From contig JACDNV010000002.1 in assembly GCA_017656425.1 (NCBI GenBank), positions 186,001-250,000 of the forward strand: a stretch of DNA of 64,000 nucleotides. Direction: 5' to 3'. This stretch comes from Candidatus Neomarinimicrobiota bacterium. GTDB lineage: Bacteria > Fidelibacterota > UBA2242 > B5-G15. The stretch's first letter is position 1. Each line of letters opens with the position of its first letter. Positions 31,475-35,342 of the stretch are shown piece by piece. The translations under genes were made by a program, and so were the position numbers. The notes below the pieces were generated by a model. The model had not been told where the DNA came from. It made no database searches and saw nothing but the letters and a program-made list of their open reading frames with translations.

Positions 31475-31912
31475 CTAATAATTGAAAGCTTTTATTTTTT
31501 GATATGCTATGCCATACATGTCATAAATGATTGTACCAACTATTGAAAGCTCTGATATTTCAAAAGCTACTCACATCCAAGGAATGAAAGGATCAGGATA
31601 ATTTTGATATAGTTTATATCCAAGTAGAGTGTTTTGCCCTTTTTTATCCCCAATTTCTATTATTGAAAAATTTATTGTATAATTACCCTCATTATCGGAA
31701 TAAGTTGAAAATGTATCTTTGTATTCATTTATAAAACTAACCTTTGCTCCTTGAATACCGATTTTAGAGTAACTATCAAGTACTTTACCTTTTACTATTA
31801 CTGAAGTTTGTGGACGTGATTTGGCAATTAAAAGTATTGTAAAAGTGGCAATAGTTATTATTTTAAAGGAACGGCATACAAATAGATGTAATCTCCCCAC
31901 TGAATTAATCAC
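31475..31912 (-). pseudogene. Degraded secreted protein with T9SS-type sorting motif
   Basis: The first 113 residues (31,571-31,912) hold a hydrophobic N-terminal segment, a CarboxypepD-reg-like stretch (KGKVLDSYSKIGIQGAKVSF, later TYSDNEGNYTINFS) and the start of a type IX sorting domain, YKLYQNYPDPFIPW. An in-frame TGA then interrupts it. The same frame continues for 31 residues, FEISELSIVGTIIYDMYG, to a TAG at 31,475. The usual sorting domain runs YQNYPNPFNP-TT-I-FE-IYD--G, so spacing is intact and only the stop and a missing last 50 residues spoil it. Most of the passenger domain also appears deleted. It is probably a relic of a surface protein. Confidence 0.72.
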
Positions 31913-32235: not shown

Positions 32236-32865
32236 ATGAGCAGTTTTTTAAAAAAGGTAAGAGTTCAGATACGCAATAAGATTCTTACCGGTGTTCTGGC
32301 GTTAATACCGATTGCTGTCACAATTTATCTGATAAGACTTTTTGTAGAGTTTTTTGATAATATAGTAAGTCCAATTATTGATCCTTATATTGGTTTTCAT
32401 ATACCAGGTCTAGGGATAGTAGTGTTCTTCATTATTCTTTATATCCTCGGACTCTTCGTATCCAATCTATTAGGTAAGAAGCTATTATTACTTATTGAAA
32501 AATGGTTGAATTACATACCTATTGCTGGAACGATTTACAGAACTGCAAAGCAGATTGTATATGCTTTTTCTGTTCAGGGAAAGGGTTTCGAAAAAGTAGT
32601 TTTTATAGAATACCCGAGGAGTGGAATTTGGACTATAGCTTTTGTTACTGGTGAATCAGTGGGAAAAGATGGCGCCGAATTTTATAACCTGTTTGTTCCG
32701 ACAACACCTAATCCAACTTCTGGATGGGCTCTTTTTATTCCAAAGGAAGATGTCATCCCATCGGAGATGACCATTGAGCAGGGTTTAAAAGCATTGATAT
32801 CTGGAGGTGCCGTCGCTCCTCAAAAAATGAGTTTTATAAGGAAAAATAAAAAGGGAAATGAATAA
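32236..32865 (+). CDS. DUF502 family membrane protein
   Basis: A 209-residue membrane protein of unknown function. Two hydrophobic segments (about residues 17-36 and 55-80) precede a soluble part with the family motifs IPIAGTIYRTAKQ, VVFIEYPRSGIWTIAFVTG and VFVPTTPNPTSGW (here LFVPTTPNPTSGW). It starts a plus-strand run and overlaps the fakAB-like gene by eight bases, so co-translation is likely. Confidence 0.88.
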   Translation: MSSFLKKVRVQIRNKILTGVLALIPIAVTIYLIRLFVEFFDNIVSPIIDPYIGFHIPGLGIVVFFIILYILGLFVSNLLGKKLLLLIEKWLNYIPIAGTIYRTAKQIVYAFSVQGKGFEKVVFIEYPRSGIWTIAFVTGESVGKDGAEFYNLFVPTTPNPTSGWALFIPKEDVIPSEMTIEQGLKALISGGAVAPQKMSFIRKNKKGNE

Positions 32866-34660
32866 CACCACAAAGCTCGAATATCTCGATGGGAGAAGAT
32901 TCTTAATCAGTGTACTGGCTGGTGCCAATGAGGTATTCAATAGAAAAGATTATCTTGATAAAATAAATTATTTTCCTGTGCCTGATGGCGATACTGGAAC
33001 TAATATTTCAGGTACCTTTCAGGGGATTGTTGAGCGCATTGGGTCGTGGAATATAAAGAAAATAGGCGAATCAATCAGTGAGGTGGCAAATATTTCACTG
33101 GAGACTGCCAGAGGTAATAGCGGTGTAATATTTGCTCAATATTTTCATGCACTGGCTAAGGAATTAAAAAATGAATTCAAGGTATCCACAGAAAAATTTG
33201 GTCTGGCTGTTAAAAATGCTATAAATAATGTTTATAGTGCAATTTCCGATCCCCGTGAGGGGACAATCCTGACAGTTATGAGGGAGTGGGCAGACTTCGT
33301 GTGTGAACAAAGCTCAAGGATAAAAGATTTTCCAACATTACTTTCCAGATCGCTGGAAATTGCAAAAATATCTTTACAGTCAACGCGATATAAAATAGAA
33401 GTACTAAGGAAAAACAATGTTGTTGATTCAGGAGCATTGGGATTTGTTCTATTTATAGAAGGTATAGTCAAATTTTTAAAAAGCGGCAGGATAAGTGATC
33501 TAAGGAAAATGAAGAAAGGGAATTTAGAAGTTGATATTAAGAGCTATGAGAATATTGATATTAATAGTATGAATTATAGATGGTGTACAGAGTGTATTAT
33601 CAGCGGAGAGAACATTGATCATGAATTAATTAAGAATAAAATACGTGAATATGGTGACTCTGTTGTGGTTGCTGGTTCTGATGATAAAGTTCGTGTGCAT
33701 ATACATACCGATAACCCGGCAGGTGTGATGTACGCTCTAAAGGATTTTGGAGAGATAGTTTACCAGAAAGCCGATGATATGTATATGCAATATAAGGTAG
33801 CCCATAATCCCCATCCGGATGTTGCGATTGTTACTGATTCTGCTTGTGACCTGCCACAGAAAGTTATAGATAAATATATGATAAATACTGTTTCATTAAA
33901 GATATCTTTTGGGAATACGACCTATATTGATAAAGTGACAATTACTCCAAATATATTCTATAAAATGGTGGATTCGGCGAAAGATTATCCCGTTACGTCT
34001 CAACCTGCACCCGGCGACTTTTTAAACCTATTCGGGTTTTTACTTTCCCATTATAAATCAATTATTGGTATTTTTTTACCTGATAAGTTGAGTGGTACTT
34101 ATCAGAATGCAGTGAAAGCATCTCAACATTATTCTGATGGAAGAATAACAATAATAGATTCAGGATTTGCTACAGCTGCGCAGGGTCATTTAGTAAAAAT
34201 TGCCTCAGAGCTGGCATATGCGTGGGAAAAACATAAAGAAATCATAAAAGAAGTTAAGAAATCAAAGTCTCGAACGAGATTAATCGTTTATGTTGATACG
34301 TTCAAATATTTGATGAGGAGTGGGCGGGTCGACCCGATTAGAGGAATTATGGCAAAAATATTAAATGTAAAACCTATCCTTTCGTTAAATGGTGATGGGA
34401 GTGTAAGTCATATTGATAAAGCTTTTCTAAGGAAGACAGGTTTAAATAAACTAATCAAGCATACTATAAAGCTGATAAAAGGCAAGACTATAAGGGAAAT
34501 TACAGTAATTCACGCTGATTGTATTAAGCTGGCAAGTTTTGTCAGGGATAGATTGATTTATCATTTAAAAGTTACGAATATAGAAATTTTACCTGCTACG
34601 CCAGCCCTTGGTGCCCATGCGGGAAGAGGAGCTGTCGGAGTAGCTATTACCTGGGTGTAG
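32858..34660 (+). CDS. Fused DAK2/FakA-like and DegV/FakB-like protein (putative fatty acid kinase)
   Basis: A 600-residue fusion. Residues 9-210 form a DhaL/DAK2 ATP-binding kinase domain with PDGDTGTN (42-49) and ARGNSG (84-89). Residues about 225-315 match the FakA middle domain, with Cys243, His281 and His283 at the places of the zinc ligands of staphylococcal FakA. Residues 321-600 form a DegV fatty-acid-binding domain with VTDSACDLP, TSQPAPG (380-386) and SGTYQN (412-417). In Gram-positives FakA phosphorylates a fatty acid bound by a separate FakB; here both seem to be one chain. plsY, which uses acyl-phosphate, starts one base later. Function is inferred. Confidence 0.85.
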   Translation: MNNTTKLEYLDGRRFLISVLAGANEVFNRKDYLDKINYFPVPDGDTGTNISGTFQGIVERIGSWNIKKIGESISEVANISLETARGNSGVIFAQYFHALAKELKNEFKVSTEKFGLAVKNAINNVYSAISDPREGTILTVMREWADFVCEQSSRIKDFPTLLSRSLEIAKISLQSTRYKIEVLRKNNVVDSGALGFVLFIEGIVKFLKSGRISDLRKMKKGNLEVDIKSYENIDINSMNYRWCTECIISGENIDHELIKNKIREYGDSVVVAGSDDKVRVHIHTDNPAGVMYALKDFGEIVYQKADDMYMQYKVAHNPHPDVAIVTDSACDLPQKVIDKYMINTVSLKISFGNTTYIDKVTITPNIFYKMVDSAKDYPVTSQPAPGDFLNLFGFLLSHYKSIIGIFLPDKLSGTYQNAVKASQHYSDGRITIIDSGFATAAQGHLVKIASELAYAWEKHKEIIKEVKKSKSRTRLIVYVDTFKYLMRSGRVDPIRGIMAKILNVKPILSLNGDGSVSHIDKAFLRKTGLNKLIKHTIKLIKGKTIREITVIHADCIKLASFVRDRLIYHLKVTNIEILPATPALGAHAGRGAVGVAITWV

Positions 34661-34661
34661 T

Positions 34662-35342
34662 ATGATAGTGGTAATCTTAAATATTTTATTGGTTATGATA
34701 ATTAGTTATATATGTGGTTCTTTCCCGACCAGCATTGTTGTAAGTAAACTGGCAAAGGGCATAGACATAAGAAATTATGGTTCAGGAAATGCTGGTGGAA
34801 CAAATGTTTTTAGAGTGTTGGGATGGCAGTACGGAATTTTAGTATCTATAGTTGATATAGGGAAAGGAGTCATTGCAACTTTACTTGTCTCGCAAATTCG
34901 AATAGAACAACTTTCTTTTGAATGTGATATGCTTTTCAAAATAGTTGCAGGATTATCGGCAGTTATTGGTCACAGCTTCACAGTCTTTGCTGGGTTTCGG
35001 GGTGGAAAAGGCGTAGCTACAGGTGCGGGGATGCTTATATCATTAACACCTGTGGTTTTTATCGCCTGTTTGATAATCTTTGCACTGGTTTTATTTTCTA
35101 CAGGGATAGTATCTGTAGCTTCAATCACAACTGCTATTTGCTTCCCTATAGCCTTAGTCCTATATTCAGTAATAAGGGGAGTGAGTATAGATCAGACACT
35201 CTTAATATTTAGTCTTGTAATTCCACTCTTTATCATCTTTACACACAGGCATAATATAATTCGAATATTCAGAGGACAAGAAAATAAATTTGAAAAAATA
35301 GCTATTATAAAAAATCTATTTAAGAAGCGAAAAATTACTTGA
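34662..35342 (+). CDS. plsY: Acyl-phosphate:glycerol-3-phosphate acyltransferase PlsY
   Basis: Inner-membrane enzyme that acylates glycerol 3-phosphate with acyl-phosphate, the first step of phospholipid synthesis. The 226-residue protein has about five hydrophobic helices and the family motifs GSFPTSIVVSK, YGSGNAGGTNVFR and GGKGVATG. It follows the FakA-FakB-like fusion by one base, which places a likely producer and a user of acyl-phosphate together. Its 3' end overlaps the convergent tlpA-like gene by eight bases. Confidence 0.95.
   Translation: MIVVILNILLVMIISYICGSFPTSIVVSKLAKGIDIRNYGSGNAGGTNVFRVLGWQYGILVSIVDIGKGVIATLLVSQIRIEQLSFECDMLFKIVAGLSAVIGHSFTVFAGFRGGKGVATGAGMLISLTPVVFIACLIIFALVLFSTGIVSVASITTAICFPIALVLYSVIRGVSIDQTLLIFSLVIPLFIIFTHRHNIIRIFRGQENKFEKIAIIKNLFKKRKIT

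Follow-up and report, generated by a model that had tools for sequence, protein, structure and literature searches.

A FakA-FakB fusion encoded next to plsY in Neomarinimicrobiota/Fidelibacterota, a candidate one-chain fatty acid kinase

Two published models disagree on how FakB presents the fatty acid to FakA in the two-component fatty acid kinase (Fak), and the active complex is without a structure; for S. aureus, a model of transfer across the dimer has been proposed (PMC11617999). The domains of S. aureus FakA rotate freely in solution, and FakA_NL, from which FakA_C is missing, is still an active Fak, with a KM for FakB1 that is 11-fold higher (PMC9136124). The catalytic roles and the S. 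aureus numbering of the FakA positions and of the FakB arginine used below are those of the same work (PMC9136124).

We analysed a window, i.e. the whole stretch of DNA under study, of 64,000 nucleotides from a 2.8 Mb genome of the phylum Neomarinimicrobiota/Fidelibacterota. This genome encodes Omp85 proteins, and the host is therefore Gram-negative, as a sequence-only reading of the window had assumed; the fused chains described here, on the other hand, occur in many phyla, some Bacillota included. The window encodes a single polypeptide of 600 aa (roughly 66 kDa) that joins FakA-type domains to a DegV domain, directly before plsY. The features of the locus, all on the plus strand, are as follows.

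32236..32865 (+), DUF502 membrane protein, 209 aa, overlapping the start of the fused gene by 8 nt
32858..34660 (+), fused FakA(N-M)-FakB gene, 600 aa, ATG start, single open frame
32975..33469 (+), DhaL/FakA_N ATP-binding kinase domain, residues 40-204 (Pfam Dak2, 6.5e-34)
32984..32992 (+), D43-G44-D45, Mg-binding Asp pair (S. aureus FakA D38 and D40), both Asp invariant
33494..33577 (+), flexible linker, residues 213-240 (pLDDT under 50 at 218-229)
33575..33796 (+), FakA middle domain, residues 240-313 (Pfam FakA-like_M, PF21645, 7.5e-19)
33584..33586 (+), C243 (S. aureus FakA C240), kept in 41 of 42 fused chains
33698..33706 (+), H281-x-H283 (S. aureus FakA H282 and H284), both His in 42 of 42
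33797..33820 (+), short linker from the middle to the DegV domain, its length conserved across phyla
33821..34648 (+), predicted DegV/FakB fatty-acid-binding domain, residues 322-597 (Pfam DegV, 1e-69)
34325..34327 (+), R490, equivalent of the catalytic FakB Arg (FakB1 R173) by alignment to FakB, 42 of 42
34658-34660 (+), stop codon of the fused gene
34662..35342 (+), plsY, acyl-phosphate:glycerol-3-phosphate acyltransferase, 226 aa (PF02660, 7e-51)

One base separates the stop codon of the fused gene from the start of plsY, exactly as had been read from the sequence, and the plsY product passes the PlsY equivalog model TIGR00023 with 166.8 bits against a cut-off of 137.2. DUF502, the fused gene and plsY are the sole plus-strand genes between opposite-strand neighbours on either side, so they probably share one transcript. 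Scans for promoters and terminators gave signals no more than those in shuffled sequence, and no tRNA or Rfam match was found in the window. At 35335-35342, plsY overlaps by 8 nt with a convergent gene for a TlpA-like thioredoxin, which is followed by a DsbD-like gene. A short GTG reading frame at 31571-31912 (-), ending in LYQNYPDPFIPWM, resembles the truncated start of a type IX secretion sorting domain and is probably a gene remnant. The sequence-only reading had suggested that DUF502 overlaps the fused gene and may belong to its process. The overlap held; a shared process with the fused kinase is weakly supported, with DUF502 lying upstream in 20 of 77 fused loci and its linkage confined to part of the window's phylum.

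The proposed make-up of the chain, with DhaL, the FakA middle domain bearing its Cys and two His, and DegV in one polypeptide, was recovered by the Pfam matches listed above. By homology, the middle domain would be the dimerisation and zinc domain. FakA-like_C (PF13684) had no match in the 600-aa chain, in agreement with the claim that DegV replaces the FakA C-terminal part, whereas FakAs from split loci of the same phylum (L115, L117 and L119) do match it. The chain scored 186 of the 975 bits set for the NCBIfam FakA equivalog NF038248 and 256.8 of the 396.1 bits set for the YloV subfamily TIGR03599, did not reach the NCBIfam cut-off for FakB1, and was above that of TIGR00762 (DegV). Its DegV part aligns over the full length with FakB2 (4x9x) with single-residue gaps, and the elements of the tunnel roof are present.

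Conservation was scored in 42 aligned fused chains from many phyla. N37, D43, D45, T46, N87 and D190, which correspond to S. aureus FakA N32, D38, D40, T41, N82 and D185, were invariant (42/42). In the DegV part we placed by alignment the positions of FakB2 T61, S93 and H266, which we take to be head-group positions. The first (T380) is Thr or Ser in all 42 chains and the second (S412) is Ser in 41, while the third (H587) is His in just 30 of 42, which counts against the kinase reading. The DegV pocket, whose ability to hold a fatty acid had been put forward as a check, is thus predicted by alignment and model to have the full FakB fold, the tunnel-roof elements and the head-group residues.

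The AlphaFold model of the fused chain had a mean pLDDT of 90.9 and a pTM of 0.86; a canonical FakA from Thermobrachium celere (L078), modelled as a control with a similar alignment depth, had a pTM of 0.53. The DhaL domain appears to be placed with confidence in this model, since an unplaced DhaL would hardly allow a pTM above ~0.6 (our own estimate from the domain sizes), and all domains are thus predicted to be packed confidently, although pTM is an indirect measure. In the superpositions that the sequence-only reading had called for, the DhaL domain matched S. aureus FakA_N with Z 33.7 (rmsd 1.1-1.7), and the DegV domain matched FakB/DegV structures with Z 34-36 (rmsd 1.9-2.7 over 267-280 residues). 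Many of the latter carry a bound fatty acid, and the descriptions of most solved DegV relatives among the matches name a FakB or a protein that binds lipid or fatty acid. The C-terminal domain of the control L078 gave Z 24.4 to S. aureus FakA_C (6w6b). According to the models, the fused chain carries a real FakB fold where classical FakA has a degenerate one.

The linkers also set the fused chains apart. The spacing between the fixed columns M308 and D327 was 18 residues in 29 of 42 fused chains (sd 1.7), while the same spacing from the middle to the C-terminal domain in canonical FakA had a mean of 36 (sd 9.2). The linker from DhaL to the middle domain is of similar length in fused and canonical chains. 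The short, near-constant middle-DegV linker and the canonical-like DhaL linker suggest that the DegV domain is held in place while the DhaL domain can move.

Only one DegV domain was found in the window's genome, namely that of the fused chain; a separate FakB gene was not found there, nor thus the pair that makes up a two-component Fak. A single, fused DegV domain was likewise the only one in 25 relatives, which makes 26 of the 61 genomes surveyed. Among 12 further genomes with fused chains, tested via named loci, the fused DegV was the sole one in 6, among them that of Labilibaculum filiforme. Provided that the enzyme acts as a Fak, the built-in DegV must therefore be the carrier in genomes without a separate FakB. 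It could be argued instead that the fused DegV is a mere docking platform like FakA_C, and that the real fatty acid carrier is another protein. In classical FakA, the same position holds a FakB-like fold that docks FakB and has no tunnel (PMC9136124), FakA_C takes part in receiving the fatty acid according to one published model (PMC11617999), and each of the three Bacillota hosts of the fused chain has four other DegV proteins. However, the window's genome and the 25 relatives have no other DegV that could act as the carrier, the fused domain can be aligned with FakB from end to end and has the catalytic Arg in all chains, and it reaches Z ~36 to FakB, the fatty-acid-loaded form included, against ~16 for the canonical C-terminal domain of L078. 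We consider such a platform very unlikely.

The fused chains form an old and widespread family rather than a local oddity. In the window's genome and 60 relatives, matches were found in 43 of the 61, mostly full-length fused chains at 34-75% identity. In named genomes, a single-protein query gave no match and an alignment-based query recovered fused chains from Bacteroidota, Chlorobiota, Calditrichota, Acidobacteriota, Aminicenantota, Spirochaetota and Pseudomonadota; they were also present in Gemmatimonadota, Bipolaricaulota, Bacillota, Actinomycetota and other lineages. In total, 78 fused loci from ~17 phyla were read, a few of which end at contig ends. As these are draft genomes, the fusion might be an artefact of assembly or annotation, or the chain might be inactive. 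In one genome of the set (G034; L124:1725-3450 (-)), a DegV frame directly before plsY is preceded only by a fragment of the middle domain and lacks an intact kinase part, which seems to have been lost or misassembled. Nevertheless, the fused length is retained in relatives from 75% down to 27% identity, which argues against a frameshift or assembly artefact; the same chain in independent genomes of ~17 phyla contradicts the artefact reading, and a single open frame with invariant active-site residues speaks against an inactive chain. We therefore give this explanation almost no weight, and read the fusion as genuine and the chain as probably active.

A survey of plsY linkage, proposed with the first reading, was made among the fused loci with enough downstream sequence. 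In the window's phylum, 29 of the 36 informative loci have a same-strand plsY immediately after the fused gene. It is also adjacent in some loci of six other phyla, namely Calditrichota, CSSED10-310, Bipolaricaulota, Parcubacteria, Spirochaetota and Pseudomonadota (3/8 in the last), and 2 of 7 Bacteroidota loci have it no further than 2 kb away. The linkage, whose absence from relatives would have spoken against the first reading, is thus widely conserved. No plsY was found beside the Bacillota fused loci, or in any of 34 Bacillota canonical fakA loci with flanks of up to 5 kb. The nearest relative (L003, 75% identity) has no plsY adjoining the fused gene, and several clades are likewise without the linkage. 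Within the window's phylum, split fakA and fakB genes lie beside a PlsY-family gene at seven loci, in both gene orders, with an eighth locus broken up; the FakAs of L115-L117 have a long insertion between the DhaL and middle domains. The fused and split forms thus take each other's place beside plsY. These operons in relatives, together with the sole DegV of the genome and the confident packing of the model, support the suggestion of a possible one-chain fatty acid kinase.

The host probably has other means of acyl activation, as plsX (on another contig), FadD-like ligases and a second, more divergent PlsY-family gene (G000:C18:18490-19014; L134:3964-4569) were found in the window's genome. 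The fused kinase is thus probably one of several acyl-activation routes, and need not be the only or main one for fatty acids. The second PlsY-family gene precedes genes that we judged by eye to be glycosyltransferase-like and RNase HII-like. At L018, L123, L040, L048 and L061, DegV or fused genes without an adjoining plsY lie beside DUF1295 (steroid-reductase-like), and some of these loci are also beside lipocalin, redoxin or DUF2177 genes. Such neighbours suggest lipid metabolism, and the DUF1295-type loci may belong to a further lipid pathway that draws on acyl-phosphate. A one-chain acyl kinase might accordingly deliver its main product to PlsX for acyl-ACP, or phosphorylate a special carboxylic acid destined for another lipid, rather than serve PlsY. 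The plsX gene of this genome and the neighbours seen in clades without plsY linkage fit this reading, and Fak products can reach PlsX in Gram-positives (PMC10146087). We find it improbable, given that plsY directly adjoins the fused gene in the window, as at most loci of the phylum, that plsX sits apart from the locus, and that fatty acid or other lipid binders and FakBs predominate among the solved DegV relatives matched.

Taken as a whole, it is highly probable that the fused chain unites a whole fatty acid kinase in a single polypeptide, with tethering in place of docking through FakA_C. The domains, catalytic residues, fold, lack of other DegV and plsY linkage were obtained by computation, and the fatty acid binding, phosphotransfer, dimer and membrane exchange are carried over from the Fak literature by analogy. 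A free fatty acid would leave the membrane and enter the DegV tunnel, its carboxylate staying at the tunnel mouth close to Arg490. Carried by its flexible linker of ~28 residues, the DhaL domain would bind ATP-Mg2, dock on this mouth and pass the gamma-phosphate to the carboxylate, giving acyl-phosphate, either within one chain or between both chains of the dimer. The middle domain would hold this dimer, and the short linker would set the position of the DegV domain. FakA_C, which holds the separate FakB in classical FakA, would be unneeded with a tethered FakB. As FakA_NL is active without FakA_C, tethering can plausibly stand in for that domain, and FakA_C could be missing because the tether would remove the KM penalty. 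PlsY, encoded by the adjoining gene, would then use the acyl-phosphate for the first acylation of glycerol-3-phosphate.

In the unrooted kinase tree, a single, weakly supported branch (69 and 87) parts the fused from the canonical chains, which is compatible with one switch of architecture between them. We distrusted a root obtained via E. coli DhaL, which fell among the fused chains, as the outgroup branch was 10 changes per column long. A profile of canonical FakA_C showed weak similarity to both the fused and the separate DegV sets (3-4% identity), slightly better to the fused. As a tentative idea, which we hold to be somewhat doubtful, the fused chain may be the older form and FakA_C the decayed remnant of a built-in FakB, which lived on as a docking stump once separate FakBs had assumed its role. 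If true, the Gram-positive two-component system would be derived from a one-chain enzyme.

No description of a fused FakA-FakB was found in the open-access literature searched, so the one-piece enzyme seems undescribed there; an earlier mention may exist elsewhere, and the domain combination itself is visible to any Pfam scan. With a true FakB in place of FakA_C, the partners would be joined in a set ratio, and crystals of the active state could come within reach. Should the fused chain prove active, a tethered FakB would be shown to make FakA_C unnecessary.

The two-component Fak (S. aureus FakA/VfrB with FakB1/FakB2; B. subtilis YloV/DegV) is like the fused chain in its DhaL and middle domains, its catalytic residues and the FakB fold with the catalytic Arg, and by analogy the same reaction is presumed. 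It differs in being made of two proteins, with FakA_C (PF13684) and several exchangeable FakBs, whereas the fused chain has one built-in FakB on a short, near-fixed linker and an adjoining plsY. The split fakA-fakB-plsY and fakB-fakA-plsY operons of the window's phylum (L115-L118 and L119-L122) have the same enzymes beside a PlsY-family gene, but their FakA keeps FakA_C, their FakB is separate, and they belong to a distant branch of the kinase tree.

A permuted chain of 787 aa (L113:1390-3750 (+) and L114:1717-4077 (-)) also holds the FakB and kinase domains in one polypeptide, with the C and HxH motifs after DhaL as in the fused chain. However, its DegV precedes DhaL, it has no adjoining plsY and it is far more divergent, with a long C-terminal region without a Pfam match. 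It is possibly a second, separately formed one-chain kinase. The genomes in which it was found carry the fused chain as well. Dihydroxyacetone kinase of E. coli (DhaK-DhaL) has the DhaL fold in common with the fused chain, at 19% identity, and a substrate domain of related fold, but acts on another substrate and has no middle domain. The dihydroxyacetone kinase of C. freundii is fused, so a kinase that occurs both split and fused is already known.
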